A stretch of 50,115 nt of DNA, taken from the IMG/VR virus record IMGVR_UViG_3300031673_000077, positions 1 to 50,115 of that record; one strand, 5' to 3'. Shown here in pieces: positions 4,923-50,115 of the stretch. Numbering within the stretch: position 1 is the stretch's first letter; each line of letters opens with the position of its first letter. The stretch is from a virus. Under the pieces are notes generated by a model that did no database searches, was not told where the DNA came from, and saw only the letters and a program-made list of their open reading frames with translations. The position numbers were made by a program, and so were the translations under genes.

Positions 4923-5231
4923 GATGAGAGCGCTCAATCCAGGTGTGCCGAGGGACGATAGAACACGGCTCGGCGGCCTCATGCGGTTGAGGTGTGCCGC
5001 CGCGGGGAGTGTTCCAGCACTCCCGGGCCGCCGGGCATTCACTGCACAGGCATGCGGGCGGGGCGGTCGGGTCACGTTCCCGAGCTGATTTGCGAAGGGG
5101 GTGCGTTTTTCCGCCGACATCCCCAGACCAGCGGCTCGTGGGGGGCCTTGGAAGGACCCGTAGGAGCCAGCCGTCGACCTGTGTGAATCCGGCGGCCGAT
5201 TCGACAATGGAGGCCGTCTGCGGGGTTTCAT
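4923..5231 (-). other. Gap or N-terminal extension of the methyltransferase
   Basis: About 300 nt in an otherwise gapless operon. The methyltransferase frame is open throughout from ATG 5231, giving a Pro/Arg-rich low-complexity N-terminus. A second minus frame is also open here (containing ACLCSECPAARECW) but has no good start and would run over 100 nt into the methyltransferase. I cannot decide between them. Confidence 0.4.
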
Positions 5232-9276: not shown

Positions 9277-9316
9277 GCCAGCCTCCCTTTCGTGCGGTCC
9301 GGCCACCGCCGTGGCC

Positions 9317-16019: not shown

Positions 16020-16023
16020 CACC

Positions 16024-22022: not shown

Positions 22023-22032
22023 GGCAACCCCC

Positions 22033-22143
22033 TTACCGCCAAGACGCCAAGGACGCCAAGACGACCACGGCGCACTTCCGGGGTACGGCCACGACGTCCC
22101 CTGCCTCCGCCGTGCTTGGCGCTCTTGGCGCCTTGGCGGTGAG
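22033..22143. repeat. Inverted pair of gccaagacgccaag dispersed repeats
   Basis: ACCGCCAAGACGCCAAGG with a further GCCAAG (22035-22060), and its inverted counterpart CTTGGCGCTCTTGGCGCC followed by TTGGCGGT (22115-22140), enclose ~55 nt. A third copy sits in the tail fusion gene at 32531. Such 9-mer-based repeats are abundant in several environmental bacterial genomes, so this is probably host-derived. It fills the gap between two tail genes and could fold as a terminator-like hairpin. Confidence 0.8.
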
Positions 22144-22170: not shown

Positions 22171-23853
22171 TCACAGGTCCTCCGGGAGCCGCCCGGCCCA
22201 CGCGCGGGCGACGTCGGGGGCGGCCGGGCCCACGGCGTCGGCGATCGCCGTGAGGACCTCCGAGCCCTCCGAGTAGTTCCAGCTCCCGTCGTCGCGGCGC
22301 GTCTGGATGCGCACCTTGACCGTCGTGCCGTCGGCCTGGCCGGGGAGGTCGTAGACGAGCCGGGCGTGGCCACTGCAGACGAACGACATGGCCTCGGTGA
22401 CGTCCGGCGTGTCAGTCGGCGGCGCTGCGCCGTTCACGGTGTAGGCGATGGCCCACTCGTCGGCGGCCATCGAGCCGGCGCCGCCGGCGGAGTCGTCGGC
22501 GTAGGGGTTGTACTGCGCGATCACGCGCACGACGCCCGAGGGCTGCAGGACGAGCTCCGCGAGGTAGGGCCCCTGCGGGGAGCTGAGCACCTCGGCACCA
22601 CCCGAGACCGTGAGGACCAGGTACGGCTCGCCGTTCGGGCCCACGGGGCGGAAGCCCGACTCGAGGACGCCGTTGAAGTAGGCCATGCTGAAGTAGTGAA
22701 CGCCGTCGCCGAGAACGATGTTCGGCGTGAAGGGCTCCGCCGACGACGACGCCCAGAGGTCGCCGGGGACAGCTTCGGGCGGCGAGCCGACGGCGTGATA
22801 CACCCGCCAGCCGTAGGGCTCGGCGCCGGCGCCGGGGAGGTAATTGAAGATGCGATACAGGCCGCGGAGCTCCTGATAGTGACTGGCGAAGGGCGACCGG
22901 TGCGTGCCTGTTACCTTGCTCTGTCTCCTCGGCGGAAGGCGGCGGCCGGCGAACACACTGCTGCCCAGGAATAGCGGGGGCCGGCAGCTTGGCCCGCCGA
23001 GCGTCTCAGGGCCGGGCCCGATGATTTGGCTGCGGCGGCGCGGAGGCAGGCGACAGCCGGCAAAGAGACGACTGCCCGAGAAGATCGCGGGGCGAATTAG
23101 CGGCCCGCCGAGTGTCTCAGGGCCGGGCCCGATGATTTGGCTGCGGCGGCGCGGAGGCAGGCGACAGCCGGCAAAGACCCGCGTCCTGCAAAACAGCAGC
23201 GGCGGCGAGTACGGCTCGGTGGGGGGCGAGAACGAGGTCGTCCACCGCGCGATGCCAGTAGAGACACGTACCTCGTCCAGCCAGCCGCGTAGGTACTCCG
23301 TGTAGTTAGTCCCGGCCAAAAACCAGGAGACCGCAGCCAGAGAGTCACTGTCAGGGGTGCCGCTGGATACGATATCAGTGCCATCGACGAAGATGTACCA
23401 GTCGCTTCCGTGCCGCACGATCGCGTGGTGATACCATGTGTCAGCGGCCGGGCTCCACGAGCCAGACACGTCTATCGCACCGGACCCGCCATCGCCGGTG
23501 ATCCTGAGAACACCGGCGGCCTGTTCCCACTGGCACTTGATGTAGTTCTCACCGCTAGCGTAGCCGCACCACAGACCCTGATCCGCCGCAACGTCTGCGA
23601 ATCGCACCCTGTAGTCCACCGTGACGTCGTCAGAGCCCCACTGCCAGTCGGTGTGGGTTGGCGTTTTTAGGAAGTCTCCGACGCCATCAAAGAGCGCGGA
23701 GCCGGTGCCAAATACCTGCTGTGCGGTGTCCACCTGGACGTCACCGAACACCTCTATGGCGTGCCCCGCTGGCGAGGCGTCCGGGAAGTCGGTGGACTCG
23801 TCGGCGCCATCGCAGTGCAGCAGTAGCCTGGTGTGGTAGTCGTTGCCGGCCAT
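22171..23853 (-). CDS. LamG-like lectin-domain adhesin with tandem repeat
   Basis: 560 residues. Residues 1-210 form a concanavalin/LamG-type jelly roll (LLLHCDGADESTDFPDAS, GDVQVDTAQQVFGTGSALFD, TWYHHAIVRHGSDWYIFVDG, RGWLDEVRVSTGIARW), a carbohydrate-binding fold common in phage tail proteins. Residues ~220-320 are a repeat of 37 residues (FAGCRLPPRRRSQIIGPGPE) in just over two copies. The C-terminus is beta-sandwich-like. Likely a receptor-binding or side-fibre protein. The basic Arg/Pro repeat is odd between lectin-like domains. Confidence 0.75.
   Translation of the reverse strand: MAGNDYHTRLLLHCDGADESTDFPDASPAGHAIEVFGDVQVDTAQQVFGTGSALFDGVGDFLKTPTHTDWQWGSDDVTVDYRVRFADVAADQGLWCGYASGENYIKCQWEQAAGVLRITGDGGSGAIDVSGSWSPAADTWYHHAIVRHGSDWYIFVDGTDIVSSGTPDSDSLAAVSWFLAGTNYTEYLRGWLDEVRVSTGIARWTTSFSPPTEPYSPPLLFCRTRVFAGCRLPPRRRSQIIGPGPETLGGPLIRPAIFSGSRLFAGCRLPPRRRSQIIGPGPETLGGPSCRPPLFLGSSVFAGRRLPPRRQSKVTGTHRSPFASHYQELRGLYRIFNYLPGAGAEPYGWRVYHAVGSPPEAVPGDLWASSSAEPFTPNIVLGDGVHYFSMAYFNGVLESGFRPVGPNGEPYLVLTVSGGAEVLSSPQGPYLAELVLQPSGVVRVIAQYNPYADDSAGGAGSMAADEWAIAYTVNGAAPPTDTPDVTEAMSFVCSGHARLVYDLPGQADGTTVKVRIQTRRDDGSWNYSEGSEVLTAIADAVGPAAPDVARAWAGRLPEDL
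23004..23178. repeat. 111-bp-period tandem repeat inside lectin gene
   Basis: A 64-base block is identical at 23004-23067 and 23115-23178, and a degenerate third copy precedes it near 22920-22960. The period is 111 bp, a multiple of three, so copy number can change without breaking the frame. Confidence 0.9.
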
Positions 23854-30327: not shown

Positions 30328-32883
30328 CTACCCCCCCCACTCGACGGCGAGCGTCGTGGTGTAGAAGTCGCGCTCCTGCGCTTTGTCCCGGCGCGAGGTC
30401 CTCTGCGGCTTCGAGGCGACCCGCACGCTGCGCACGTCGAGCCACGAGATCGCGCCGGACTCGAGGTCGGAGACGATGGCGCCGACGGCGTTCGCGAAGG
30501 CCAGATACGCGTCGCGCTCGTCGCCCGCCGCGGCATAGGCCTCGTCCACGTCGCGCTCGATCGTGACGGCCATCTCGCCGGCGTGGAGGAAGCACGCGAC
30601 CGTGTCGACCGCCGGCTGCCGGGCGTTCCAGCTCTCGCAGCCCTCGATGAGCGCGCAGGGGCGGGCGTAGTCGTCCGCGTCCTGGTAGGGGTAGTGGACG
30701 CTGCCCTTCGCGCCGGCCGCGTCGCCGGCGCCGACCAGCGCCTGGAAGTCGTCGCTGGCCGCGAGCAGGCAGCGCAGGTTCTCGATCGGCTCGGCCAGGC
30801 AGCCGGTGGGGGTTAGAGCGGCGGCGAGCTCGACGTAGGCGTCGTGGACGATGGAGGGCTCGCCGAGAACGGAGGCGTCGTCAGCGGTGACGGCCCAGGC
30901 CTGGAGGCGGTAGTGCGTGCCCTCGGCGTTCCCGGCGAAGGCGACGTCGCCGGCGCCGGCGCGCGAGGACTCGGAGACCTCGACGCCGGCGGCCGTCGAG
31001 AGGCGCACGCGGTAGCGCTGGGCCGAACCCGCGAGCGTCGCGGTGATCGTGGTGCCGGAGACGACGACGGACATCGTCGGCGGCACCTTCACGAGCGCGC
31101 CGGGACTCCATGCGCCTATCGGCGGGTGCGCTGCGTCCATGACGGTGCCGAGGTAGTCGGTCGTGACGCCCGAGCCGTGGCCGGTGTCCCAGCACGGGGA
31201 GCCGCTCTGCAGCGAGAAGTCGCCGGCGGCCGGGTCGGTGAGGAGCGGGTCGGTCGCGTCCTTGTCGCCGGAGGCGTCAACCAGGTTGAGCGCGGCGAAC
31301 TCGGCGTAGGTCTTCGTCGCGGCGCCGGGGCCGTAGGCGAACGCCGTGTAACCGTGGAAGCAGTTGTTCCGCATGACGACCGTCGAGCCGGCCTTCGTAG
31401 CGGTCTCCTCGGGCCAGACGTAAGCCGGGTAGAAGACGTAGCCCACGTCCTCGAAAGCGTTGTTGACGAGGTGAAAGCGCTGGTTCCAGCCGGAACGGAT
31501 CCAGACGCCGAAGTTGCAGTCGTAGAACGTGCAGTTCCGCACGGAGTACAGGGATGCGGTGTATACGTTGTAGCCCGTGTAGACGGCCACGTTCACGGTC
31601 CGTATCGTGCAGTCCTCCACGACTACGTCCCGCAGAACGTTGACGCCGAAGCTGTTCGTCTTTCCGCCGCCGATGAGCGTGCAGCGGGCAACGTAGCCTC
31701 CAGTCTGCCCCCAACTGCCCACGCCTACGCACGTCTTCGAGTCCACTGTGACCTCGACCCGACAATCGGTGACCCGTCCCTGGTACACGATTGTGACGCC
31801 CGTGGCCGGGACCTCGATGTCGCAGTCGTCCACCCAGGCGAATCCGTTTCCGGACGACGTGCTGAAACCCGCGGTCGTCGGGCTACCGGCAATCCGCAGG
31901 TGCCGCAGAATCACCTCGTCGCAGTTCACGTAGACGCCGTACGTCGGGCTGCCAGTGGTTGGCGCGATGATGATATTCTCGCGCGAATCCGCCGGGTCGC
32001 CCTCTATGATGAGCGGGTATCCGTTGAGCGGGTCCGTCGTGAAAGCGGCGTTCGGCGTCGGCGTCTCGTCGTAGGTCCCGGCGAAGACGCGGATGTACTG
32101 CGAGGCCGTGAACTTCGTCGCGCCCTGGTCGGTCCAGAGCTGGTCGAGGGCGGACTGGATCGTCGAGTAGGTCTTGCCAGGTCCGACCTCGTAGAGCCCG
32201 GCGCCGGTGTGGACTGTCGTCCGCGGGAGGGCGCGGCTGAGGCCTGACGCCTTCAGACCGAAGAGCGGCTCGGGGATTTCGAGGAGAACCAGCGGAGCAG
32301 GCTTCGGGAGCGTCTCGGGCGCGACGAGTTCGCCGCCCTCGACGACGGTCTTGAGCGATTCGGCGTAGACCGCGAGCGCGTCCGCGTGCGCCAGATCGCG
32401 GCGCATGTTTTCGTCCATGGCCTCGCGGATGCGCTCGTCCTCGTGCGCTTCGAGGTCCTCGGGATCCTGGAACGCGGCGCGGAGGCCGGGGGCGATGGCG
32501 CCGTACTTCGCGTCGAACGGCACGGCGTCTACCGCCAAGACGCCAAGAGCGCCAAGCACGAGACGGCTGCGGCGGGAGCGGAGGTCTGCGAGGCCGTCGG
32601 GGGCCAGGTCGAGCTCGGCGACCGCCCGAGTCGGGTCGGCGAGGTCGCCGGGGGAGAAGTCCCGGCCGGCCGGGATCACCGAGATCACCATGCCGGGGTA
32701 GTCGTCGCGGTAGAGCTCCGCGAGGGAGACCTCATAGCCGCGCGCGACGCGGAGGTCGCGGTCCTCCTGTCGCTCGCCGATGAGCCACGGGGCCTGGCAG
32801 TGATAGAGCACCTTCCAACGCGTGGTCGGCACCTCAGGGACGGCGGGCGCGGGCGGCTCGAGCGTGACGGCTTCCGGACTCAC
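30328..32883 (-). CDS. Beta-helix tailspike-like protein fused to tail-terminator domain
   Basis: 851 residues from GTG 32883, whose stop-start overlap with the upstream gene is GTGA. Residues 1-200 are an unrecognised domain interrupted by a repeat-encoded hydrophobic segment (LVLGALGVLAVDAV). Residues ~220-590 are a right-handed beta-helix (STIQSALDQLWTDQGATKF, CTIRTVNVAVYTGYNVY, FHLVNNAFEDVGYVFY), typical of polysaccharide-degrading tailspikes. A FnIII-like segment follows. Residues 697-851 (LRCLLAASDDFQALVGAGDA, FYTTTLAVEWGG) look like a tail terminator/neck protein. No start codon separates them. A 60-bp block at the join also occurs in the ParB-like gene. Confidence 0.75.
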   Translation of the reverse strand: MSPEAVTLEPPAPAVPEVPTTRWKVLYHCQAPWLIGERQEDRDLRVARGYEVSLAELYRDDYPGMVISVIPAGRDFSPGDLADPTRAVAELDLAPDGLADLRSRRSRLVLGALGVLAVDAVPFDAKYGAIAPGLRAAFQDPEDLEAHEDERIREAMDENMRRDLAHADALAVYAESLKTVVEGGELVAPETLPKPAPLVLLEIPEPLFGLKASGLSRALPRTTVHTGAGLYEVGPGKTYSTIQSALDQLWTDQGATKFTASQYIRVFAGTYDETPTPNAAFTTDPLNGYPLIIEGDPADSRENIIIAPTTGSPTYGVYVNCDEVILRHLRIAGSPTTAGFSTSSGNGFAWVDDCDIEVPATGVTIVYQGRVTDCRVEVTVDSKTCVGVGSWGQTGGYVARCTLIGGGKTNSFGVNVLRDVVVEDCTIRTVNVAVYTGYNVYTASLYSVRNCTFYDCNFGVWIRSGWNQRFHLVNNAFEDVGYVFYPAYVWPEETATKAGSTVVMRNNCFHGYTAFAYGPGAATKTYAEFAALNLVDASGDKDATDPLLTDPAAGDFSLQSGSPCWDTGHGSGVTTDYLGTVMDAAHPPIGAWSPGALVKVPPTMSVVVSGTTITATLAGSAQRYRVRLSTAAGVEVSESSRAGAGDVAFAGNAEGTHYRLQAWAVTADDASVLGEPSIVHDAYVELAAALTPTGCLAEPIENLRCLLAASDDFQALVGAGDAAGAKGSVHYPYQDADDYARPCALIEGCESWNARQPAVDTVACFLHAGEMAVTIERDVDEAYAAAGDERDAYLAFANAVGAIVSDLESGAISWLDVRSVRVASKPQRTSRRDKAQERDFYTTTLAVEWGG
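30736..30795. repeat. 60-bp exact repeat, copy in tail fusion gene
   Basis: Identical to 7501-7560. It encodes residues 697-716 of the fusion, exactly at the start of the tail-terminator-like domain. Confidence 0.95.
32531..32562. repeat. gccaagacgccaag dispersed repeat in coding sequence
   Basis: ACCGCCAAGACGCCAAGAGC plus GCCAAGCACGAG, the same family as 22033-22143, kept in frame within the gene 30328-32883, where it is read as LVLGALGVLAV. Confidence 0.85.
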
Positions 32884-39571: not shown

Positions 39572-41622
39572 CGGCCCCCCCTGTCAGGTGAGAGACCGCG
39601 CGAGCCCTCGCGCACGCGGCGGTCGGAGAGGGGACGGCGCTTCGCCGGCCTCTGCCGCTTGTCGATGCCCTTCGACATCGCCGCGGCGCGGCAGAGCTTC
39701 TCCGCGTCGAAATAGTGGTCGCCCGTCGCGCTGTCGATCTTCTTCCAGACGCGCACGCCGCGCTCGGATCGCCCGACCTTCTGGTTCGTGACCTGCGCCA
39801 GGTAGCGGGGGTCGAGCTCCTCGATGTCCGCGGGCAGCCGCCACTCCGCGGGCGAGCCGGCCGGCTGCCGCATCGAGTGGACCAGGGCCTCCGAGAAGCG
39901 CCACGGGTTTATCGTGTGCATGAGGACCTCGCCCGGGATGCGCTGCTGCTTTCCGTCGCGCCGGCGCTTCCCCGGCTCGATCCGGTTCGGCTTGATGTGC
40001 GGGTCGAACTCGCGGTTGCCGCCCCGCCCGGGCGCGATGCGGCCGCGGTTCCGGAGGCAGAAGTCGTAGACCGCGTTGGTGTCATACTGCGCGTCGATGA
40101 GGCCGAACTCGAGCCCCCACACGTCGCCGGCCCAGTCGCCGTAGGTCGCGGAGAGGATCCCGTCCAGGACCGGCGCGAGGTCCGAGCCCTTGCCGAGCTC
40201 CCGGATGAGCTCGCCGGCGTCCAGGAGCCACGAGCGCCACGAGGGCCCGAACGCGCGCACCACGTAGTAGACCGACGACTCCTGGACGTCCACGCCGAGG
40301 AAGAGGCCCAGGACCTCGGCCTCGGCCGGGACCGCCTTCGCGCGGTCGCGGACGGTGTAGCTGTCGATGCAGCGGCGAACGACGTTCGCCTTCGGGGCCT
40401 CGCCCTTCTCGCGCCAGGGCTCGGCGAAGTCGAATCGGACGACGCCCCGGAGCTGCTCGACGTCGCCGGACCTGACGGCCTTGAGGAAGAGCTGGGCCGT
40501 CCGCCACCACGGGTGCCAGCGGGATATGAAGCACGGGAAGTGGAAGCCGACGTGCTCCGTGAAGGGCTCGTAGAGATCACAACGGCCAGAGGGGAAGGGG
40601 CCCTTGCCGTCGGCATGCTTCCTCTCGGTGACGAGCTCCGACCCCTCGCGCGCCCAGACGCCGTGGGCGATCATGTCGAGGCGGTGCGTCTCGTCCATCC
40701 GGCCGCCGCAGTGGATGCAGTCGTACCAGACGTTTTCGGCGGTGACCTGGTCGGGCTGCTTCGCGTCCTCGGCCCAGTGGAGCTCGCAGGCGTTCGCCTC
40801 GCAGCTCGCGTGCTCGGCCTTGAAGACCTGGACCTGGTAGCCGCCGCAGTGCGGGCACGGGACGTGGTAGTACCTGAGGTCGGAGGCCTTGATCTCGCGG
40901 TCGAGGAGGTCGCCCTCCTCCTCGGGGGTCGAGGTCTCGATGAGCTTCGTCGAGCCGCGCTCCCGCCAGGTGGTCAGGGCCTTCGAGGCGATGCTGACGG
41001 CGTCCAGCGTCGTGTGCTTCCGGTAGATGCCGAGCTCGTTCAGTATCACGTACCGCATCGCGTCGCCCGACTGCGAGGCCTGGCTGCCGGCCCAGGCGAA
41101 GACGACCATCATGTCCTTCATGACGATCTTGTAGCTGCCGCGGTCGTCGTTGCGCTCGGGGCTGTGCTCCCGGACCGTCTCGCACTCGAAGAGGCTGTCG
41201 ATGCGCGCGCGGAACGTCGGCTTCGTGATGCTCTCCTTGATCGACTCGACCCAGAGGACCGGGCCGCGGTCTTCCTCCTGCCCGATGTACGACCCGACCG
41301 CGTTCTCGGGGGCGGTCGTCTTGCCGACCTGGCGGGCCCCGCGCTCCGTGACCGTCCGGACGGCGGGGTCTCCGCACGCGTCCTGCACGGCGCGCATCGC
41401 TGGCTGGAGCGCCGAGGAGAACCGGGGGTAGGCGGACGTCCGCTTGTCGAACTTGCGGTACCTGTCCGCCCATTCCGTCACGGTGAGCCGGCGCGGGATC
41501 TCGAGGCGGGAGGCGAGCTTCGCCAGGAAGGGCGCGAGCTCGCGCGAGATCGTCTTCCGGCGGAGCGGCTCGAAGAGCTTCGCGGGGATGGGGACCTGGT
41601 TGTCGGCTGCGACGACGGTCAC
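39568..41622 (-). CDS. Terminase large subunit, GpA family
   Basis: 684 residues from GTG 41622. Motifs: LTVTEWADRYRKFDKRTSAY (GpA-type start), Walker-like GARQVGKT with Lys101, a CPHCGG/CIHCGG zinc module (~240-310), GLFLGVDVQESSVYYVVRAF with acidic residues of the nuclease domain, and LIDAQYDTNAVYDFC. It cuts and packages DNA with ATP hydrolysis. Overlaps the small subunit by 4 nt. Confidence 0.9.
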   Translation of the reverse strand: MTVVAADNQVPIPAKLFEPLRRKTISRELAPFLAKLASRLEIPRRLTVTEWADRYRKFDKRTSAYPRFSSALQPAMRAVQDACGDPAVRTVTERGARQVGKTTAPENAVGSYIGQEEDRGPVLWVESIKESITKPTFRARIDSLFECETVREHSPERNDDRGSYKIVMKDMMVVFAWAGSQASQSGDAMRYVILNELGIYRKHTTLDAVSIASKALTTWRERGSTKLIETSTPEEEGDLLDREIKASDLRYYHVPCPHCGGYQVQVFKAEHASCEANACELHWAEDAKQPDQVTAENVWYDCIHCGGRMDETHRLDMIAHGVWAREGSELVTERKHADGKGPFPSGRCDLYEPFTEHVGFHFPCFISRWHPWWRTAQLFLKAVRSGDVEQLRGVVRFDFAEPWREKGEAPKANVVRRCIDSYTVRDRAKAVPAEAEVLGLFLGVDVQESSVYYVVRAFGPSWRSWLLDAGELIRELGKGSDLAPVLDGILSATYGDWAGDVWGLEFGLIDAQYDTNAVYDFCLRNRGRIAPGRGGNREFDPHIKPNRIEPGKRRRDGKQQRIPGEVLMHTINPWRFSEALVHSMRQPAGSPAEWRLPADIEELDPRYLAQVTNQKVGRSERGVRVWKKIDSATGDHYFDAEKLCRAAAMSKGIDKRQRPAKRRPLSDRRVREGSRGLSPDRGGR

Positions 41623-42365
41623 GAGGCCTTCCCTTCAGGTTCCGAGAGGCTTCCTGCGCAGCGGGAGGCGGCGTCGGAGATCTCGGAGCGCGCGCGGTCG
41701 CGGTAGGCCGTGAGGACCTGCCGGGCCCGCGACGGCGTCACCTGCGCGAGAGAGGGCGCGAGGTCCGGCGCCCTCCGGAGCGCGGCCGTGAGCACATCCG
41801 CCATCTGGCCGAAGAGGTCCTCGACCAGGTCGCGGCGGACGAGCGTCCCCTCGGCCTCGGCGTTGGACCGCTCCGCCGCGAGCGCCTTCGCCTTCTTGAG
41901 CCGCTTCTCCCAGTCGAGCTCGAGCGGGAGCTGGCCGTCGGGTCCGACCCCGTCGGGATCCCCGGCGCCCGCCCCGCGGCGGTGCGCGCCCCAGCGCTTC
42001 TTGACCCACCTCAAAAGCTTGCCCAACGGCCACGTCGCGTCGTCGTTGCGCGGGGCCCCCTGCTCCGCCCACTCGCCCAGCACCTTCCGCGTCGTCGCGA
42101 GGAGGTCGACCACGAGCTTCTGCGGGACGCGGTCCAGGAGCGGGCGGATGTAGTCGCAGACCAGCCTGGTCTGGTGCGAGGTGAGAGGCTGGCCGGCGAG
42201 GTAGCGGCGGAGGGCGTCCTGACGCTTGGCCGCGGCGGCAGACGACTTCGCCACGGAGGGCGCGGAGGACGCAGAGGACGGCGGCTTCTTGCGGACCCTT
42301 CGACGCTGCTCAGGGCAGGCGGCGCGGCGCTTGGGCTTCGCCTTCTTGTGGGGCTTCTTCGGCAA
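41619..42365 (-). CDS. Terminase small subunit-like (Nu1 type)
   Basis: 248 residues from TTG 42365. The C-terminal half (WEKRLKKAKALAAERSNAEA, LVRRDLVEDLFGQMADVL) matches Nu1-like small terminases that recruit DNA. The N-terminus is basic and contains two repeat-derived inserts: SSASSAPSVAKSS and ACPEQRRRV. Helical middle possibly HTH. TTG start is unusual; AGGTAG precedes it. Confidence 0.7.
   Translation of the reverse strand: MPKKPHKKAKPKRRAACPEQRRRVRKKPPSSASSAPSVAKSSAAAAKRQDALRRYLAGQPLTSHQTRLVCDYIRPLLDRVPQKLVVDLLATTRKVLGEWAEQGAPRNDDATWPLGKLLRWVKKRWGAHRRGAGAGDPDGVGPDGQLPLELDWEKRLKKAKALAAERSNAEAEGTLVRRDLVEDLFGQMADVLTAALRRAPDLAPSLAQVTPSRARQVLTAYRDRARSEISDAASRCAGSLSEPEGKAS
42246..42319. repeat. 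Two dispersed host-type repeats in terminase gene
   Basis: CCACGGAGGGCGCGGAGG plus GACGCAGAGG (42251-42279) and CCCTTCGACGCTGCTCAGGG (from 42296). Both keep the frame. The second family recurs at 33724-33749 and, degenerate, at 12754-12779. Confidence 0.8.
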
Positions 42366-42369
42366 CGGT

Positions 42370-42804
42370 CTACCTCGCGCTCGATGGATCGAGCTTCAAG
42401 AGAAACGCGACCGACGTGACGCGGCCCGCCAGGCCATCACGCGACGGATGTGGGTCGTGCACTATGTCGAAGTGGTGCCCCCCGGCCGAACCGTCCGCAC
42501 GCCCGACAACGCAGTGCTCAACCGGCTCGCCTTCGACGGTCTTCAGGTGCCGTGGGCTCAGCCCCGAGAGCAGAACCAGAAGGTCGGCCGGGAGGCGGTA
42601 GTATGGCGTGGACGTTGACGTGTCGACCTCGATGTAGGCCAAGCCACGCCCCGCAAGCCACCGATTCAGCGGCCGGGTCCAGTCACTATCCCAGTTGCCG
42701 AGGTCGGGAACGTCCTCGATGCCGATGTCGAGGAGTGACGCAACGCAGGCGGCAAAGCAGTTGCCGTCAGGAAACCCGAACCTCGTCTGGTCAACCGGCT
42801 TCAT
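42370..42804 (-). CDS. Putative papain/C39-like cysteine-peptidase-fold protein
   Basis: 144 residues with GAAGGAGGTGAAGG upstream. QTRFGFPDGNCFAACVASLL has a Gln-Cys arrangement like papain-fold proteins, and later HHFDIVHDPHPS can supply the His/Asp. This family is widespread in phages without a set function; peptidase or peptidoglycan activity is possible. The ACVASLL motif is very characteristic of it. Confidence 0.6.
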   Translation of the reverse strand: MKPVDQTRFGFPDGNCFAACVASLLDIGIEDVPDLGNWDSDWTRPLNRWLAGRGLAYIEVDTSTSTPYYRLPADLLVLLSGLSPRHLKTVEGEPVEHCVVGRADGSAGGHHFDIVHDPHPSRDGLAGRVTSVAFLLKLDPSSAR

Positions 42805-42816
42805 CCTTCACCTCCT

Positions 42817-43257
42817 TCACCTCGCATACTCCGGGATCACGTCGTCGGGAACGTTGAAGATGCCGCGGCCGCCCTTGTAGGGGATTGGGCGCTCCAGCTT
42901 GCGGACGTCCTCCAGGAACAGGCCGAAGCGGTTGTCGTCGATGTCCGAGCAGGCCGGCTTCGCGTGCTCACGCTGATTCAGTATCCCGAACCTGGCGACG
43001 CGGACGGTCCCGAGGAGCGCGCCGAGCGGCAGGCGCTGGAGCCAGGCCGGCGTCTGCGCCGGACTCGCGCAGCCGAGCTCGACCAGGAAGTCCTGCATGG
43101 CAGCGGCCTCGATGTAGCCGACCTTCCGCGCCGCCGCGTGGATGGCGATCCGCTTCCCGACCAGGCCGCGGAAGCGGTCGTGCGTCCGCGTCTCGATCCG
43201 CTTCGGGCCGTCGATGATGAGAGACGCGTGCGGCTGCCAGAGCGTGATGGCGTTCAT
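42817..43257 (-). CDS. ASCH domain protein
   Basis: 146 residues. NAITLWQPHASLIIDGPKR followed by IETRTHDRFRGLVGKRIAIH are the hallmarks of the ASCH fold, an RNA-binding-like beta barrel of which some members are nucleases. LPLGALLGTVRVARFGIL and the Trp/Arg residues fit. Role in phage unclear; often found near replication or packaging genes. Confidence 0.75.
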   Translation of the reverse strand: MNAITLWQPHASLIIDGPKRIETRTHDRFRGLVGKRIAIHAAARKVGYIEAAAMQDFLVELGCASPAQTPAWLQRLPLGALLGTVRVARFGILNQREHAKPACSDIDDNRFGLFLEDVRKLERPIPYKGGRGIFNVPDDVIPEYAR

Positions 43258-43820
43258 GCCTTGGTCCCCTGATCCCCTATCCCGCCCGTATGGTCGACCG
43301 CCGGCAGGACGCGCTTGAGCGCCGCCATCGACTGGCGGGTCTCCCCCACGGCCTTTGCCTGCCGCCTCAGTTCGGCATTGCTCTCGCGGATGTTCCCGTC
43401 GATTCGGTTCATGAGCGCGCGCGCGCGCGAGGTGCGCTCCCGCAGCTCATGCCCGAAGCGACGGGCGCGCTCCACGACCTCCGCCGACTCGGCCGCCGCC
43501 GCGCGGGCCGACTCCTCGAGCAGGAGAGCCGTGCGCTGGAGCTCCTCGAGGTTGCGGTCGAGCGAGCCCAGGACGTGATCCGTCATGCCCTCGCGTTCGC
43601 GCTGGAGCTGTGGACGTTTCGTCATGTTCCCGACCGCCGCGCGTCGCGCGTCGCGGATGTCCTTGTGGTGGTGGCAGGCCCAGCAGAGCCCGAGCCAGCG
43701 GACGGAGCGGTGCATGCCGCTCGCCCCGACCGGCAGGTCTCGCCCGCAGTTGACACAGACCGTCGCCTGGCCGCCGGCGATCTCGGGATGCAGCGGCGTG
43801 GCGTCGTGTTTCTGTGGCAT
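43254..43820 (-). CDS. Zinc-knuckle and coiled-coil protein (188 aa)
   Basis: ATG 43820 shares a base with the TGA of the coiled-coil gene. VCVNCGRDLPVGASG...LCWACHHHKD is a CxxC pair like those of 6412-7086, followed by a long helical coiled coil (DRNLEELQRTALLLEESARA, VVERARRFGHELRERTSRAR). Ends overlapping the ASCH gene start. Confidence 0.65.
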   Translation of the reverse strand: MPQKHDATPLHPEIAGGQATVCVNCGRDLPVGASGMHRSVRWLGLCWACHHHKDIRDARRAAVGNMTKRPQLQREREGMTDHVLGSLDRNLEELQRTALLLEESARAAAAESAEVVERARRFGHELRERTSRARALMNRIDGNIRESNAELRRQAKAVGETRQSMAALKRVLPAVDHTGGIGDQGTKA

Positions 43821-45106
43821 CACGACTTCCCCTCAGCCGGCTCTTCGCGGTACGGGTCGACCAGGCCTTCGAGGGTGCAGAGTCTCTCGCAGACCGGCCT
43901 GCACCCCCACTGAAGGAGCCTGACGAGGACACTGTCCGGGCATCCTTGGCCACTATCCGGGCAGGCCTCCATGTCGTTCCACGCCTCGCGCAGCTCCGTC
44001 ACGGCCGCGGCGATCTCTTCGAGGGTGTCGAGGCGCTTGCGCGACTCCTCCTCGATCTCCCGGCCGCGCTTGAGGTCGTCGTTGACCTGGATGGCGCCGC
44101 TCTCGACCTCGCCCAGGAGGCACTCGGCGGCGGAGAGCTTCGCCTTCAGTTCGTCGCGCGCGCACTCTGCGAGGCCGGGGACTACGCAGTAGGCGAGGCG
44201 TGACTCCGCGAGCTCGAGGGCTTCGCGGGTCTTGTCGAGCGCCGCCTTCAACTCGTCGCGCTCGCGAGTCGCCCGAATCAGTTCCTCGTGATCCTGACTC
44301 CACAGCCCGTCATTCTGGAGACCGTTCGCGAGGGCCTTGTTGTGGGACAGAAGGGTGTCGTTACGTTTCTCCGCCTCCGCCAGCTTCGCCTTCAACTCGT
44401 CCCGCTCGCGCTCCAGTTCCGCGTAGTCGGCTTCGACCCTGGCGTTCACCATCTCCAGGTCGCGCTCGCGCGTCTCCGCCCGCGCCAGCTGGCCCTTCAG
44501 CTCGTCGCGCTCGCGCTCGGCCAGCTCGGCACGGGCGAGGAGCTTTGCCGGCTGAGCCTCCATCTTGTCGTCGGGGAGGCACCCTTCAGTGGTTGCCCGC
44601 AAGGCGCTGCGCAGGCGCGTTGCATGCCCGAACATCCACTCCATCGAGGCGTTGGCGAGCTTCGCCAACGCCTCGTCCCGCTCGCGCGCGACTTCTGCCA
44701 GCTTCGCCTTGACCACATGAAGCGACTCCTGCAAGTCGGCGGTCTTGTCTGCCTGCCCCTCGAAAAATGCTTGGGCATCGTCGCGTTGTTTCTCCGCCTC
44801 CTCCAGCTCGGCCTTGAGCTCGTCCCGCTCGCGCTCGGCCTTCTCGGCCTGCCCCTCCATATAGAAAACACTGCGGATATTACCGTCCGAGTCTGTGCGC
44901 AAGAGATTCTCAGCCTCAACCAGCTTTGCCTCCAGCTCGTCGCGCGCCTTGCAGGCCATCCGGCAAATATCCCCTCTGTCCCGCTGTCTGATAGCCTCGT
45001 CGCGCTGTTCGACGGCCACACACACACGCTGCTGGATATCCGCGATGCGCTGCTCCGCCTCCGCCAGCTTCGCCGCAAGCTCCTTGATTCTCTGCTCGTC
45101 AGTCAT
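43820..45106 (-). CDS. Long coiled-coil protein (428 aa), junction gene
   Basis: ATG 45106 with AAGGAGGACTGAC upstream. Nearly continuous heptads (KELAAKLAEAEQRIADIQQ, RERDELKAELEEAEKQRDD, KLAEVARERDEALAK), with a C-terminal ~60-residue domain holding four Cys (MEACPDSGQGCPDS, CRPVCERLCTLEG). The 127 bases at 44710-44836 equal the window start. The part below 44836 belongs with the phage; the part above it may come from another element. Structural or scaffold role possible. Confidence 0.75.
   Translation of the reverse strand: MTDEQRIKELAAKLAEAEQRIADIQQRVCVAVEQRDEAIRQRDRGDICRMACKARDELEAKLVEAENLLRTDSDGNIRSVFYMEGQAEKAERERDELKAELEEAEKQRDDAQAFFEGQADKTADLQESLHVVKAKLAEVARERDEALAKLANASMEWMFGHATRLRSALRATTEGCLPDDKMEAQPAKLLARAELAERERDELKGQLARAETRERDLEMVNARVEADYAELERERDELKAKLAEAEKRNDTLLSHNKALANGLQNDGLWSQDHEELIRATRERDELKAALDKTREALELAESRLAYCVVPGLAECARDELKAKLSAAECLLGEVESGAIQVNDDLKRGREIEEESRKRLDTLEEIAAAVTELREAWNDMEACPDSGQGCPDSVLVRLLQWGCRPVCERLCTLEGLVDPYREEPAEGKS
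44710..44836. repeat. 127-bp exact direct repeat, copy 2
   Basis: Same as 1-127. Joining the two copies gives a circle of 44,709 bp and keeps the frame of the coiled-coil gene. Confidence 0.95.
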
Positions 45107-45172
45107 GTCAGTCCTCCTTCTCTAGTCTAAAAGCCTTGTGAATACTCCGCACAGCCCGTTGTTCTTCTCATA

Positions 45173-45490
45173 CTACGCACACTTGCACTCCACGCAGGCG
45201 ACCTGCATGATCGGACAGAGCTTCTTCGTATCGGGATCATCGTTTTCATCAACGATCTCAAAGTCCTCCCATTCACTCGGATCACTCTGCAGCACTGCCA
45301 AGGCATTGCCGCCATCCGCGCACACCAGCCACTCTCCTGGTAGCACGCTCCCCCCGATCAGAAGTGTTCCGGACCCCGACGGTTCACCTCTCGTCGGAGG
45401 ATTCTCGCGCAGCACGCCGATGTGTTTCACTCCCGGCGCCCACTGGATGGCATCGTACATCTTGCCGTCTTCCTTGTGTCGTACCTTCAT
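45173..45490 (-). CDS. PGDWI-like small phage protein (105 aa)
   Basis: ATG 45490. MKVRHKEDGKMYDAIQWAPG, then SVLPGEWLVCADGGNALAVL and DPSEWEDFEIVDENDD match a common short phage family in which a start with KVRHK and a central GDW-type motif recur. The C-terminus has CPIMQVACVECKC, an added Cys cluster. Function unknown. First gene on the AT-richer side; a 66-nt gap to the coiled-coil gene follows. Confidence 0.65.
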   Translation of the reverse strand: MKVRHKEDGKMYDAIQWAPGVKHIGVLRENPPTRGEPSGSGTLLIGGSVLPGEWLVCADGGNALAVLQSDPSEWEDFEIVDENDDPDTKKLCPIMQVACVECKCA

Positions 45491-45699
45491 CTTGGCCTCC
45501 TCCTGTTCTGCTTCCGGATATCGGCTATCTGCGCGCGCATCTCTCGATGCTCGTCCAGCACTAGCTCCATTAGGCGCATGAGGTCGTCTCGTTCCAACGA
45601 GTCAACCGGGACTCCGTCGTGCTTCATGCTCGGCACCATCGGGTATCTGCAGCGCAAGTCAGCGACGAGGTCTATCAATCTCTGATCGTATTCAGGCAT
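45487..45699 (-). CDS. Small hypothetical protein (70 aa)
   Basis: ATG 45699 with GGGAGGCAGTTCG upstream. A short acidic-to-basic helix protein (LIDLVADLRCRYPMVPSM, LMRLMELVLDEHREMRAQIA). Its stop overlaps the next start. Family not recognised. Confidence 0.6.
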   Translation of the reverse strand: MPEYDQRLIDLVADLRCRYPMVPSMKHDGVPVDSLERDDLMRLMELVLDEHREMRAQIADIRKQNRRRPR

Positions 45700-46594
45700 C
45701 GAACTGCCTCCCAACCAGGAGTTCCTTGTACCACTCCGGAAGTCCGGCCGTCACTCCCCGAGATAGTCGCTTCTTCCACGCCCATTTGAATAGTGCTTCC
45801 TTGATATCGTCCTCGCACTCCGCGAGCACGTCCTGGTTGACCTCCTTAAGGAGATGCCCGATGTCCTTCGGTGAATCCGTCAGCTCTCCGCGATCTCGAA
45901 GGTGCTGGACTGCCTTCTCCCAACGAGACTGCGTCCGGTACGCCGCGACGAGGTCTTCGAGAATATCTCCACCCGTCGGGTTGCTAAGCCGCCAGTCCTT
46001 CTTGTGGACTTCCTTGAACTTCTCGGAGACGTGCTTGCCCATGAGAGTCTTTCCGTCGACTCCGAAGTGACCGTACGCCTTCAAGACCACGCCTTCTATC
46101 GTCTGCCCACCGAGAACGGAGACGGTCTCCAGCATCGCGAGCAGCTGCTCCTTGCTCTCGACCCTGCCCTGGAATAGTACCGGAACGCACTCCAGTCTAA
46201 GACGTCCCGCGATGAGTGCCTTCTCCTCCGGTAAGACGCAGTCCTCCTCGCCCTTGTCGACCTCGAAGATGATGACGTTGCCGGTCGGGACGCGGTCATA
46301 TGCGAGCGCGTTGTGCTTTGGCTTGCAGAGGACCTCGCCACGGTACGTCCATCCTGGCTCCAGGAGTCCATCCTTGTTGAGCAGATTGACGGTCTCGACG
46401 GCAGATGCGAACATCTTCGGAGGAGCGTTCGGTTCTATCTGCGCGCCCTTGCTTCTGCAGTGTAGTGCATAGTTGCCGTCCACGCACCATGAGAACTGAC
46501 TTCCGTCGACCTTTTCTTCACAGACGACGTCTCCATCGAGAAGCGTCTCCACGGCCTTGTGCCCGAGGTTGTAAATCTTTCCGTAGCTATGCAT
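45692..46594 (-). CDS. RNA ligase (Rnl2-like)
   Basis: 300 residues. Nucleotidyltransferase motif I is EEKVDGSQFS with Lys28 as the expected adenylated residue; RGEV (Glu86) fits motif III, EGVVLKAYG (167-175) motif IV and KHVSEKFKE motif V. C-terminal helical domain. Such ligases seal RNA breaks, for example tRNAs cut by host anticodon nucleases, so it may counter host defence. Encoded with other small proteins. Confidence 0.85.
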   Translation of the reverse strand: MHSYGKIYNLGHKAVETLLDGDVVCEEKVDGSQFSWCVDGNYALHCRSKGAQIEPNAPPKMFASAVETVNLLNKDGLLEPGWTYRGEVLCKPKHNALAYDRVPTGNVIIFEVDKGEEDCVLPEEKALIAGRLRLECVPVLFQGRVESKEQLLAMLETVSVLGGQTIEGVVLKAYGHFGVDGKTLMGKHVSEKFKEVHKKDWRLSNPTGGDILEDLVAAYRTQSRWEKAVQHLRDRGELTDSPKDIGHLLKEVNQDVLAECEDDIKEALFKWAWKKRLSRGVTAGLPEWYKELLVGRQFDA

Positions 46595-46775
46595 CTTCGT
46601 ACTCCCCTCCGAACACTACCTCTATTGCGCGCTTCGTCGAATCCATCAGATCCTGCAGACATTGTCGCATGTCGTCCGGAACGGCACCGTCTTCTAAGAC
46701 AGCGCACGTAGCCATCTCAACCAGGCCGCACTCCTCTAGTAGGTCTTCCAACGCGGATCGTTCTTCGCTCGTCAT
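46587..46775 (-). CDS. Small acidic protein (62 aa)
   Basis: ATG 46775 overlaps the stop of the FmdB-like minigene (ATGA) and its own end overlaps the ligase start. Helical and acidic (SEERSALEDLLEECGLVE, LQDLMDSTKRAIEVVF). No family recognised; could act with the ligase. Confidence 0.6.
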   Translation of the reverse strand: MTSEERSALEDLLEECGLVEMATCAVLEDGAVPDDMRQCLQDLMDSTKRAIEVVFGGEYEDA

Positions 46776-46918
46776 GTGGTCTCCTTCCTCTTGTATTCCG
46801 TCTCGTAGAACCCACTCCCTTCAAACATCACTCCACACCCGGTACCGGCCAGCATCTCACTCACGCCGTGAAACTCGTCCTGCTCGTGCTGGTACCATCT
46901 GTATGTATACGTCGGCAC
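46772..46918 (-). CDS. FmdB-like minigene without zinc cysteines (48 aa)
   Basis: GTG 46918 shares a base with the TAG of the radical SAM gene. MPTYTYRWYQHEQDEFHG and the ending EGSGFYETEYKRK are the two end signatures of FmdB-type putative regulatory proteins, but the four zinc-ribbon Cys are missing (one Cys only). Perhaps a degenerate relative with another role. Confidence 0.55.
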   Translation of the reverse strand: MPTYTYRWYQHEQDEFHGVSEMLAGTGCGVMFEGSGFYETEYKRKETT

Positions 46919-48288
46919 TAGACGCGTACCTCCGCCCAGACGTCCCTCGATGTTCTCACGTCCACGGTCGCCTTCATCGCTGAGTGCGGTGCTGCCATCC
47001 TGGTGACGGCGTCCCAGTAGAAGCTGAACTTTCCGTCGGCAGACTCGTGCAGCCATGGCTTGACCCATATCGCCTTCTCGGAGACGTCGTTCGTTAGAAA
47101 TGAATCCACGCCGATACCGTTGCATCTCTTCTCTGCTTCCTTGACGACGTCCAACCATCTGTCATAAGGATGCAGACACGGTCCAGCACGACCGGTGTCC
47201 TTCCACGCGAGAAGAATGATCGTTGGGTCATCGTACTGCGTGAACTCCGCGAGGAACGGTGCGAGCTCTCGTATCGGTCGGAGACCGAGAACGTAGTGCA
47301 GCGTTGGATTTGGTACCATATGCAACTTCGCTAATTCAGCCCACTCCCTCGCCGTGCCGACGTCGTTCGTCGAGAAGGCGACCGCACCGCAGTTCTCCTT
47401 GATCGCGTCGAGGTGATTCAACACGCCGGCAGCGTCCTGCGTAGAGAAGTTCGGCACTATGCCGTATTGTCTCGCCGTATGGAGTATCTCAGCGAAATCT
47501 GGATGTGTCGTCGGCTCTCCACCACCGATAGCGACCTCGAATACGCCGAGAGTAGACGCTGTAAACAACGCGTCATTGACGTCAGACGTTTCCGCGTGAT
47601 CTCCATCGTGCTTGCTATCTTGGTAGCAGTGTGCGCAGTTGGCAACGCATCTATCCGTTATCTTGAGGTCCATGAGGTCTGGGAATGCCCCGCTCGTCGG
47701 CTTCGTTCCGTCAGGCAACGGCATGCGTATCTTCTTACCGCTCTTACGGTCAAACGTCGTAAGAAACCCGGACGGATCCATCTTGAAGACGACGTCCTCA
47801 GATCCGCGATACCTGTCTAATTCCCACGGGACGGTGACGCAGTCGTGCCCCTTTGACCATTCGGGTATCTCATACTCGTAGGAGTTGTCGTTGCCGCCGA
47901 TGATGTGAACGGCGTTATCGTCGACGACGTTCTTCCGTATCCATCCCCAGAGAAGGTCCTGAGACTGATCGTCCAGCCTTGGTTTCGGGAACGTTGGAGA
48001 GGATTGATGGTCGATGTACCCTTCGGACATGTCTTCTCCGACCGGGAAGTGTTTCTCGGCCATCGCCTCAGCATCGTCGACGCATAGCCCGACGCTTGCG
48101 TAAAAGTCCTTCACGGCGACGTGAAAGTACCTACGCTTTTCAGCGGGCGTCCGCTGGTGAAACCATTCCCATCCGAATTCGCTCTCTTCTGAGAAGCCGC
48201 ACTCTGAGATGTCCCTCTTCGGCACGATGATGGAATGCGACGAGCTGCTGTTCGTAGCGAACCCGTAACGGACGTTTGCGATTTTCAC
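46918..48288 (-). CDS. Radical SAM protein with N-terminal TNSSSS motif
   Basis: 456 residues from GTG 48288 with GAGGTGCTGAA upstream. Residues 1-20 (RYGFATNSSSSHSI) carry a short motif seen at the N-terminus of many phage and bacterial proteins, whose purpose is unknown. Residues 20-200 are an unrecognised domain. The radical SAM core starts LKITDRCVANCAHCYQ, with C214-x3-C218-x2-C221, and GGGEPT at 255-260. Four later Cys are too few and scattered for a clear SPASM domain. It may modify a peptide, RNA or nucleotide. Confidence 0.8.
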   Translation of the reverse strand: MKIANVRYGFATNSSSSHSIIVPKRDISECGFSEESEFGWEWFHQRTPAEKRRYFHVAVKDFYASVGLCVDDAEAMAEKHFPVGEDMSEGYIDHQSSPTFPKPRLDDQSQDLLWGWIRKNVVDDNAVHIIGGNDNSYEYEIPEWSKGHDCVTVPWELDRYRGSEDVVFKMDPSGFLTTFDRKSGKKIRMPLPDGTKPTSGAFPDLMDLKITDRCVANCAHCYQDSKHDGDHAETSDVNDALFTASTLGVFEVAIGGGEPTTHPDFAEILHTARQYGIVPNFSTQDAAGVLNHLDAIKENCGAVAFSTNDVGTAREWAELAKLHMVPNPTLHYVLGLRPIRELAPFLAEFTQYDDPTIILLAWKDTGRAGPCLHPYDRWLDVVKEAEKRCNGIGVDSFLTNDVSEKAIWVKPWLHESADGKFSFYWDAVTRMAAPHSAMKATVDVRTSRDVWAEVRV

Positions 48289-48301
48289 TTCAGCACCTCA
48301 C

Positions 48302-48361
48302 TTAGATAGGCTCTAGGCGGAAGTTTTCCATCTCCGACGTAATCTCTCGTACAGGTCTCAT
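48302..48361 (-). CDS. 19-residue micro-ORF before radical SAM gene
   Basis: ATG 48361 overlaps the TGA of the 54-residue gene (ATGA) with GAGGAGAGG upstream; product MRPVREITSEMENFRLEPI, ending 13 nt before the radical SAM start. Could be a leader peptide controlling translation, a tiny substrate peptide, or chance. Confidence 0.35.
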   Translation of the reverse strand: MRPVREITSEMENFRLEPI

Positions 48362-48522
48362 ATTTTCCTCTCCTCATCCTCGTTCAGCAACCTGCAGATG
48401 CGGCGGGCCATACGCTCGTAGTAGCTGCTTGCCACCAGTTTATGGGGGTGCGTTCGGTACACGCGCCAGATAGTATTCCAGCCTGTGCCGAATTCCACGT
48501 AGTACGCCTTCCGCTTCGCCAT
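48358..48522 (-). CDS. Small basic protein (54 aa)
   Basis: ATG 48522 shares a base with the upstream TAA. Product AKRKAYYVEFGTGWNTIWRV then YERMARRICRLLNEDEE. The overlap chain on both sides supports it. No family recognised. Confidence 0.55.
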   Translation of the reverse strand: MAKRKAYYVEFGTGWNTIWRVYRTHPHKLVASSYYERMARRICRLLNEDEERKI

Positions 48523-48743
48523 TACTCCCCCGCCCTCTTGCTCATCGGATTCGCTGCGAAGTGCTCGGCCAGGTCGGCGGCAGCCTTCCGACCTTCCTTG
48601 TGCTTGATCCAGTCGTCTATGTTCTGCCCCGTGGCCTGCAGGCAGATGAACGTCTGGCTACAGCTACCGCACTTGGGGTCGCGGAAAAGGTCGCGGCCTT
48701 TCCGACAGACAATGCGGCCCCAGTCAACGGAGTCTAGCTCCAT
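48522..48743 (-). CDS. Small Cys-containing protein (73 aa)
   Basis: ATG 48743 behind AGAGGAGGACGTG. KCGSCSQTFICLQATGQNID has a CxxC-x6-C pattern for metal binding, followed by a helical basic tail (AAADLAEHFAANPMSKRAGE). The start region repeats in three junctions of this cluster. Confidence 0.65.
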   Translation of the reverse strand: MELDSVDWGRIVCRKGRDLFRDPKCGSCSQTFICLQATGQNIDDWIKHKEGRKAAADLAEHFAANPMSKRAGE

Positions 48744-48754
48744 CACGTCCTCCT

Positions 48755-49024
48755 CTAGGCAGCCGGTCGTTCCACAAAATACTCACACCATCTGCCCTTG
48801 CGGACCTCGCTACGATCCTGGTACTTCCACACCCCGTTGTCCCCGTCGTGGCAGTCCTTGGGGGCTCCGAGGCACATACCGCGAGGACCGCAGTGCGTGC
48901 AGACGCGGCAATCAAAGGCGGCTACTCGCATCTGGTACCGCTCCTCTGATGTCGCACCCGCCGGTTCACCACAACAGAGACAGTAGAGTGGCTCGAAACA
49001 CTTGGGGCATTTCGGCGTCTCCAT
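48755..49024 (-). CDS. Cys-rich zinc-binding protein (89 aa)
   Basis: ATG 49024 behind AGAGGAGGACGTG; sequence above it is another frame of the upstream gene. KCPKCFEPLYCLCCGEP and CRVCTHCGPRGMCLG, nine or more Cys in 89 residues, suggest several zinc sites. Function unknown. Confidence 0.7.
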   Translation of the reverse strand: METPKCPKCFEPLYCLCCGEPAGATSEERYQMRVAAFDCRVCTHCGPRGMCLGAPKDCHDGDNGVWKYQDRSEVRKGRWCEYFVERPAA

Positions 49025-49233
49025 CACGTCCTCCTCTCGGCCAGCACGCCTCTCCGTGACTTGGCGCGTATGTATGCAAATGGGCAGTCGGGGCAGCCTA
49101 CGCTTCCTTCGTCGCATGTAGCTGCTTCCGCCTGAGTGTGTCCGTTGCTTAGAGCGCATTGGACACACTTCCTCCTGCATTTCTCCAACGTCCATATCCA
49201 GGCTATGTGCTTCATCACGTCCTCCTCTCGGCC
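49022..49233. repeat. Repeated stop-ribosome-site-start cassette
   Basis: The minus-strand string AGAGGAGGACGTGATG occurs at 48741-48756, 49022-49037 and 49213-49228 (21 bases are shared between the last two copies). It holds a stop codon overlap, an ideal Shine-Dalgarno and the start codon. Confidence 0.85.
49024..49215 (-). CDS. Cys-rich small protein (63 aa)
   Basis: ATG 49215 behind AGAGGAGGACGTG. KCRRKCVQCALSNG and CDEGSVGCPDCPFAYIR give three CxxC-like pairs. Ends AERRT because its stop lies inside the next gene's ribosome site. Confidence 0.65.
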   Translation of the reverse strand: MKHIAWIWTLEKCRRKCVQCALSNGHTQAEAATCDEGSVGCPDCPFAYIRAKSRRGVLAERRT

Positions 49234-49415
49234 GTGATCGTAATCGGTCCCTTGCGGAGAGGGCAATCTGATGGCGCTGTCGCGGTCATACCCCACACGG
49301 GGTCTCCACTCCCCCACGTGAGTTCGCATTTCTTCCCCTCGGCCGTACAGTAGGAGCCATTCCACCGCACCTTGCACCGGTCGGCACGATGCCAGATGTC
49401 AACCGTGATCTCCAT
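49215..49415 (-). CDS. Small Cys-containing protein (66 aa)
   Basis: ATG 49415 behind GGGAGGACATG. Beta-like with RADRCKVRWNGSYCTAEGKK and spaced Cys. Also ends in AERRT, from the coupled junction. ~90 nt to the next gene upstream contain no gene I can support. Confidence 0.6.
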   Translation of the reverse strand: MEITVDIWHRADRCKVRWNGSYCTAEGKKCELTWGSGDPVWGMTATAPSDCPLRKGPITITAERRT

Positions 49416-49505
49416 CATGTCCTCCCTTCCAAGTGCATCCATGCGTAGGCTCTCGCAGTGAGAATCCTTCTATACTTCCCCACAAGAGCCCACGTATCGA
49501 CGCGC

Positions 49506-49715
49506 TCAGGCCGGGCGGTACTCGACCGGTCCCGGACATTCTCCAGAATCCTTGCAATCGCAGCTTCCGCACCCCTCCGCGGTGCTATCGATCAGCTTCC
49601 CGCGGTTGCTGAAAACGGGGTTGAACAACGTCTCGCCGAGGTCATCGGCTTCTAGCCCTTTTGCATTAGTCGGGCACGTGAACAGCGCCGGCCACTTCTT
49701 GTTCATCTTGCCCAT
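49506..49715 (-). CDS. Cys-rich small protein (69 aa)
   Basis: ATG 49715 with GGAGGTGTAGAGAT upstream. C-terminal EGCGSCDCKDSGECPGPVEY is a dense Cys cluster; N-terminal half GKMNKKWPALFTCPTNAKGL. Possibly metal-binding; unknown. Confidence 0.65.
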   Translation of the reverse strand: MGKMNKKWPALFTCPTNAKGLEADDLGETLFNPVFSNRGKLIDSTAEGCGSCDCKDSGECPGPVEYRPA

Positions 49716-49719
49716 ATCT

Positions 49720-49893
49720 CTACACCTCCCACGGCCAACCGTATGCCCAGTATGTGCCCCCATAGCACATATCGTACGTCTCATGCCCCTTCTCGCCGCA
49801 CACCTTACACTGACGGAGTTCGCCGAGCCAGCGAGATTGGCGCGTGTGCTTCCAGGCATGAATGCCTAGCCAACACAGCAGTCTATGCGGCAC
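49720..49893 (-). CDS. DUF1660-like small phage protein (57 aa)
   Basis: GTG 49893 with GGGAGGTGCTGA upstream. LLCWLGIHAWKHTRQS, then QCKVCGEKGHETYDMCYGG resembles the 'cell fraction' of short prophage proteins of DUF1660 type (hydrophobic start with a GH-W motif followed by CxxC). Function unknown. Confidence 0.6.
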   Translation of the reverse strand: MPHRLLCWLGIHAWKHTRQSRWLGELRQCKVCGEKGHETYDMCYGGTYWAYGWPWEV

Positions 49894-49935
49894 TCAGCAC
49901 CTCCCTTTCTTCCCGGCCACCGCATATCGACGCGC

Positions 49936-50115
49936 TCAGGCTTGCTGCCCCTTCACGAGCTTATCCACCGCGGCAAACTGATCACCAAGCGTCTCCCATG
50001 TTTCGTTGAGCAGTCGAGCCTTGCCTGCTTCCATGCTAGTGGCATCGAACGTGCCGCCTGGTCCCCAGGCGGTAAATACGCCACGCTTGCTAATGCTCTG
50101 CTCGACGTGCCCAAT
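49936..50115 (-). CDS. Partial gene at right edge
   Basis: Open from the window edge to TGA 49938-49936, 59 codons. ISKRGVFTAWGPGGTFDAT and LLNETWETLGDQFAAVDKL are seen; the N-terminus is missing. No family recognised. Confidence 0.6.
   Translation of the reverse strand: MGHVEQSISKRGVFTAWGPGGTFDATSMEAGKARLLNETWETLGDQFAAVDKLVKGQQA

Follow-up and report, generated by a model that had tools for sequence, protein, structure and literature searches.

The IMG/VR virus record IMGVR_UViG_3300031673_000077 is 50,115 bases long, and the whole of this one record (the window) was analysed. The question that it raises is whether the record is one genome or two. Its first 127 bases recur exactly near the right-hand end, and beyond the second copy both the base composition and the style of the genes change. 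An earlier note, made from the letters of the record, had proposed that this tail derives from a second element. We consider it likely that the record consists of a closed phage circle (positions 1–44709) plus a side branch (44837–50115) from a second genome form occurring in the same sample, the two being joined at the shared 127 bases so that the contig has the shape of a lasso.

The shared 127-mer and the assembly graph

An exact comparison shows that positions 1–127 are identical to 44710–44836, and that the match ends at exactly 127 bases. Beyond this pair, there are no exact repeats longer than 64 bases within the window. When a de Bruijn graph is built from the contig itself at k = 127, the shared 127-mer is its sole branching vertex (once per strand), with one edge in and two out. 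The first copy, which lies within a coiled-coil gene, marks this branch vertex, while the second marks both the closure point of the circle and the start of the branch; the two copies, the circle and the branch are listed without a strand.

The length of the repeat is informative. A vertex with a single entry and two exits forces a repeat of exactly length k, while a true repeat has this length only by accident. In a published assembly of JGI type, metaSPAdes was run with -k 33,55,77,99,127 (PMC10434106), and the repeat is as long as the final k of that run, as it should be in a lasso. We infer that the present record was assembled in the same way. Contigs from metaSPAdes and MEGAHIT carry overlaps of the maximum k-mer length (maxK) where they break at repeats, at regions shared between genomes or at strain variation (PMC10914622). 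As the overlap here equals the final k of the published run, the join can be explained without any biology.

The contig would then have arisen as follows. A complete circular genome of temperate type (1–44709) would close on itself at the 127-base vertex of the k = 127 graph. A second genome form, either a co-occurring phage or a module variant, would depart from the same vertex with a low-GC (guanine plus cytosine) accessory block at 44837–50115. The two forms would be identical leftward of the vertex, in the 3′ part of the coiled-coil gene and beyond, and different to its right. Moving leftward from the tail, the assembler would have had a single continuation, the circle; it would have gone round once and stopped on meeting itself, leaving the circle plus the tail. 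The most likely origin of the two forms is a homologous recombination in the repeat-rich coiled-coil gene, which would have swapped its N-terminal half and everything upstream. Both the circle and its explanation by assembly have good support; the path of the assembler, the co-occurrence of the two forms and the recombination are what we infer from the observations given here.

No exact 127-base repeat was found in the other loci compared, many of which are fragments. A 25-mer taken from the shared sequence had no match in viral contigs. An invertible segment or shufflon was also considered and is ruled out, as the window has no inverted repeats of at least 40 bases.

The coiled-coil gene across the fork

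The fork falls within a coiled-coil gene on the minus strand, which exists in two forms. The C-terminal 338 residues (43820–44836, including the second copy of the 127-mer) are common to both. The tail form has 428 residues. Its own N-terminal part of 90 residues (44837–45106, minus) begins with an ATG at 45106, preceded by the Shine-Dalgarno-like sequence AGAAGGAGGACTGAC. The circle form reads across the closure and has 554 residues plus a stop; its N-terminal 216 residues (128–775, minus) begin with an ATG at 775, preceded by AAAAGGAGAGTGACCG, which is again Shine-Dalgarno-like. The two forms are uninterrupted and share one reading frame, and the gene is thus intact on both sides of the fork, as expected of a mosaic.

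The common part contains internal repeats, which go on into the tail form. The 90 tail-specific residues align to the common repeats with a local score of 66, compared with 42.5 ± 6.6 for shuffled sequences (1 of 300 as high), and the corresponding DNA scores 44, compared with 25.7 ± 3.7 (none of 100 shuffles as high). In contrast, the 216 circle-specific residues score 40 against 40.2 when shuffled, and have no resemblance to the common repeats. Searches of phages and viral contigs with the C-terminal part and with the circle-form N-terminus gave no match.

A blind chimera is unlikely, because both forms are in frame with ribosome-binding sites and because the repeats continue into the tail half. 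It is therefore likely that this is a real gene common to both genome forms, with recombination within it as the simplest origin.

Base composition on the two sides of the fork

The circle has a GC content of 69.7% and the tail one of 57.6%, which is 12 points lower; even the lowest stretch of 5.3 kb within the circle has 67.3%. Within 40000–50115, the best single change point is at 44690, with a 95% interval of 44617–44865 that spans the shared 127-mer. The gain in log-likelihood is 76.7, compared with at most 15.1 for windows of equal size inside the circle. The change of composition that the earlier note described is thus confirmed, and the GC plot across 44.8 kb that it had suggested places the step at the fork. 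When the circle is closed, by joining 44709 to 1, there is no comparable step, and the best change point lies elsewhere with a gain of 3.0. As the step occurs at the fork and none at the closure, it is the tail that stands out, and the circle closes naturally.

The probable 44,709-bp circle

The circle carries terS (phrog_57), terL (phrog_15), a portal (phrog_21), a capsid-protease fusion (phrog_4523), a decoration protein, a phage minor tail protein, an integrase (15958–17253, about 16 kb from the shared 127-mer), a ParB-like/methyltransferase protein, a DNA ligase and a nucleoside deoxyribosyltransferase, identified largely by family matches. Packaging, capsid, tail and integration modules are therefore all present, and closure keeps the coiled-coil gene open. 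The capsid-protease fusion is 31% identical over 78% of the query to proteins of Rhodobacter phages, and since these phages have genomes of 37.6–42.1 kb, 44.7 kb is a plausible complete size. In a genome scan the capsid protein gave only a weak match of 61 residues to Cupriavidus, which was not used. One contig of 5.6 kb (L088) has the portal, capsid and decoration proteins in common with the circle, at 62–72% in the best segments. On the basis of these observations, positions 1–44709 are probably a complete circular phage genome, plausibly that of a temperate-type phage of 44.7 kb. That the contig continued into the branch would explain why the circle went unrecognised and the record is classed as linear.

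Some further features of the circle are worth adding. Its accessory block encodes two ParB-like proteins on the minus strand (3411–5390 and 7312–9306), the first of them fused to a DNA methyltransferase. A stretch of 60 identical bases, AEPIENLRCLLAASDDFQAL, occurs at 7501–7560 and 30736–30795 in the same frame, with flanks that diverge at once; its hosts are the gene of a ParB-like protein and that of a β-helix protein of 851 residues, which are otherwise different. A repeat of intergenic type, built of CCGCCAAGACGCCAAG units, lies at 22021–22060 and 32517–32556 and might aid host assignment. Finally, 22991–23177 contains a pair of 76-base copies that are 99% alike and spaced by 111 bases.

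The genes of the proposed side branch

The branch is probably an incomplete piece of a second genome form, and every gene called in it is on the minus strand. Next to the coiled-coil gene are two small genes without a family, of 105 residues (45173–45490) and 75 residues (45487–45714). These are followed by an RNA ligase of 300 residues (45692–46594; PF09414, E 1.3e-10; phrog_548, E 8.6e-25), a small gene of 62 residues (46587–46775) and a radical SAM protein of 456 residues (46918–48288; PF04055, E 3.1e-8; phrog_16999, E 3.6e-20). The family matches thus agree with the earlier note in its naming of both enzymes. It was also right that the tail carries very small cysteine-rich genes, which lie at 48.5–49.9 kb. 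Three have a GGAGGACGTG leader, with 73 residues (48522–48743), 89 residues and 11 cysteines (48755–49024), and 63 residues and 6 cysteines (49024–49215). Beyond them are a gene of 67 residues with 4 cysteines, in which the leader has one mismatch (49215–49418), and a cysteine-rich gene of 66 residues with 5 cysteines (49506–49706).

The same note held that the tail does not fit the module order of the circle. This is only half right, as the tail does fit the layout of the circle in strand and position: it is a minus-strand block of accessory type, directly upstream of the series coiled-coil gene, 189 residues, ASCH, 144 residues, terS and terL. The circle's own accessory block (1–13 kb) occupies the same strand and position relative to terS and terL.

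In IMG/VR contigs, 21 relatives of the RNA ligase were found, at most 55% identical and in loci of 27–69% GC; apart from the ligase, these contigs have no gene in common with either the tail or the circle. The radical SAM protein and gp146 of Salmonella phage Arash are 31% identical over 81%. As a single-sequence query the radical SAM protein had no match in viral contigs, but a search with an alignment of two sequences found eight IMG/VR loci, one of them in a contig of 459 kb. A nucleotide search of phage records with 44.0–50.1 kb gave no match.

Several details of the tail were noted in passing. On the minus strand at 48738–49425, the leader GGAGGACGTGATG heads small and mostly cysteine-rich genes, in three exact copies and a fourth that has one mismatch. 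It has 11 sites in the whole window at up to two mismatches, a number reached by none of 100 shuffles, and the region resembles a series of mini-gene cassettes that share a leader for ribosome binding. A 22-base intergenic repeat, with GCCTGAGCGCGTCGATA on the minus strand, follows two adjacent genes at 49490–49511 and 49920–49941, the copies being 91% alike. The motif RYGFATNSSSSHS at the N-terminus of the radical SAM protein is invariant between it and the Arash protein, and the first 180 or so residues lie outside the Pfam Radical_SAM match.

Possible origins of the side branch

If the record is a circle with a branch, the branch may have come from either of two kinds of phage. It is a fair possibility that it came from a sibling phage, having the same packaging and head module but another, low-GC accessory block. 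The agreement with the circle's accessory block in strand and position relative to terS and terL is as expected of such a sibling, as are the reading of the coiled-coil gene in frame across the fork and a GC-corrected signature identical to that of the circle (discussed below). Set against this, the TerL and portal sequences of the circle were found in none of 25 larger contigs bearing an RNA ligase or radical SAM protein of the tail's type, many of which are fragments and provide only weak evidence, and the RNA ligase was in none of 39 records of the circle's type, many again being short fragments in a search made without a positive control. It is a serious possibility that the branch came instead from an unrelated and perhaps larger phage, which has only a segment of the coiled-coil gene in common with the circle. 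This would account for the drop of 12 points in GC, and the relatives of the tail genes occur in other phage contigs, the largest reaching 124 and 459 kb, and in mostly large phages, the listed named ones having genomes of 126–552 kb except for one metagenomic record of 44.9 kb. The terminase family model of the circle gave partial matches in 2 of the 25 larger contigs; this near-absence, weak as the evidence is, points to a genome whose structural class is different, or else to the movement of an accessory block. An unrelated phage is harder to reconcile with the common GC-corrected signature, and no second boundary of the common region is visible.

The signature also bears on whether there are two genomes at all. 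The GC-corrected dinucleotide distance δ* between tail and circle is 59, within the range of windows inside the circle (mean 64, maximum 108). All 94 control phage pieces are more distant from the circle than the tail is (minimum 68), and the 40 controls of 53–62% GC have a minimum of 99. The tetranucleotide distance of the tail (0.229, against a maximum of 0.265 inside the circle) points the same way, more weakly than the dinucleotides, as a few controls of 62–69% GC are as close to the circle as the tail or closer. Such agreement would also fit a single genome. In addition, the in-degree of one at the vertex was derived from this contig alone, and no related genome with either arrangement was found in the phage and viral-contig collections, from which near records may be left out. 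The signatures bear equally on the proposal of a second element, which stands in part: another genome form is the best reading, while an element from an unrelated host, which was considered as a candidate, is disfavoured by both the dinucleotides and the tetranucleotides. The equal signature suggests a common host range, and the phages from which the tail and circle come probably infect related hosts or belong to one community.

Were the record one real molecule, the circle would be inserted in an element of low GC, through a single crossover within the coiled-coil gene. Such a crossover would yield exactly the observed order of 127-mer, circle, 127-mer and tail, and an integrase is present. 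However, the homology would have to equal k by chance, and the insertion would have to keep the gene in frame on both sides. Phage attachment sites usually adjoin the integrase, which here is some 16 kb away, and we regard this explanation as improbable. The integrase might equally suggest a prophage flanked by host chromosome, but the recognisable genes of the tail match phage families and phage contigs, its GC lies 12 points below that of the phage, and the fork is inside a coding gene rather than at a site beside the integrase; this is extremely improbable. A random chimera of the library or the assembler, with no common gene, is very improbable. Chimeric joins are a recognised problem of assembly (PMC10914622), and the tail ends before any known boundary, but the frame, the ribosome-binding sites and the repeats all continue across the join. 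The earlier note had named a chimeric join, a strain variant at the coiled-coil gene and a recent recombination between two phages. All three were the right candidates, and it is the chimera in its random form that the open reading frames, ribosome-binding sites and continuing repeats disfavour.

Within the favoured explanation of a circle with a side branch, the sample could also hold a real recombinant lineage, in which the packaging and head module of the circle has acquired the low-GC accessory block of another phage by a domain swap in the coiled-coil gene. This gene, lying where the structural and accessory modules meet, would then be a hot spot of recombination. We consider this rather doubtful.

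Consequences for the record

The record should be split into two at the fork. Its first 44,709 bases are a probable complete circular phage genome that has been hidden in a record classed as linear, and the RNA ligase, radical SAM protein and cysteine-rich mini-genes should not be assigned to the circular phage without evidence from reads. Other complete genomes hidden in this way could be recovered by a simple search for contigs whose end is repeated internally over exactly the final k. The record may also capture recombination within the coiled-coil gene beside the packaging module.

Comparison with known systems

The circle resembles the phages of Rhodobacter capsulatus (RcKvothe, RcDormio and others, of 37.6–42.1 kb) in its capsid-protease fusion and its genome size, but the similarity of the proteins is distant only. 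The tail resembles Salmonella phage Arash (180.8 kb), whose radical SAM protein is similar along its length and stands ahead of two small genes and an annotated RNA ligase. This synteny is good by annotation. However, the RNA ligase family profile of the tail does not find the Arash ligase, so that the gene orders match by name only, and the synteny was dropped.

The locus as a whole has features of the modular mosaicism of tailed phages, with sequence and composition changing abruptly at a module border, by the packaging genes and in a repetitive gene. It differs in that only one side of the exchange is visible here. It is most likely a known kind of metagenome assembly fork and not a new biological system, with nothing outside known kinds. 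The closest likeness is to the maxK end overlaps at de Bruijn forks described for COBRA (PMC10914622), which have the length of the final k and derive from sequence common within or between genomes or from strain variation. What distinguishes the present record from these is that the start of the contig overlaps an internal position, and that one branch closes into a circle.

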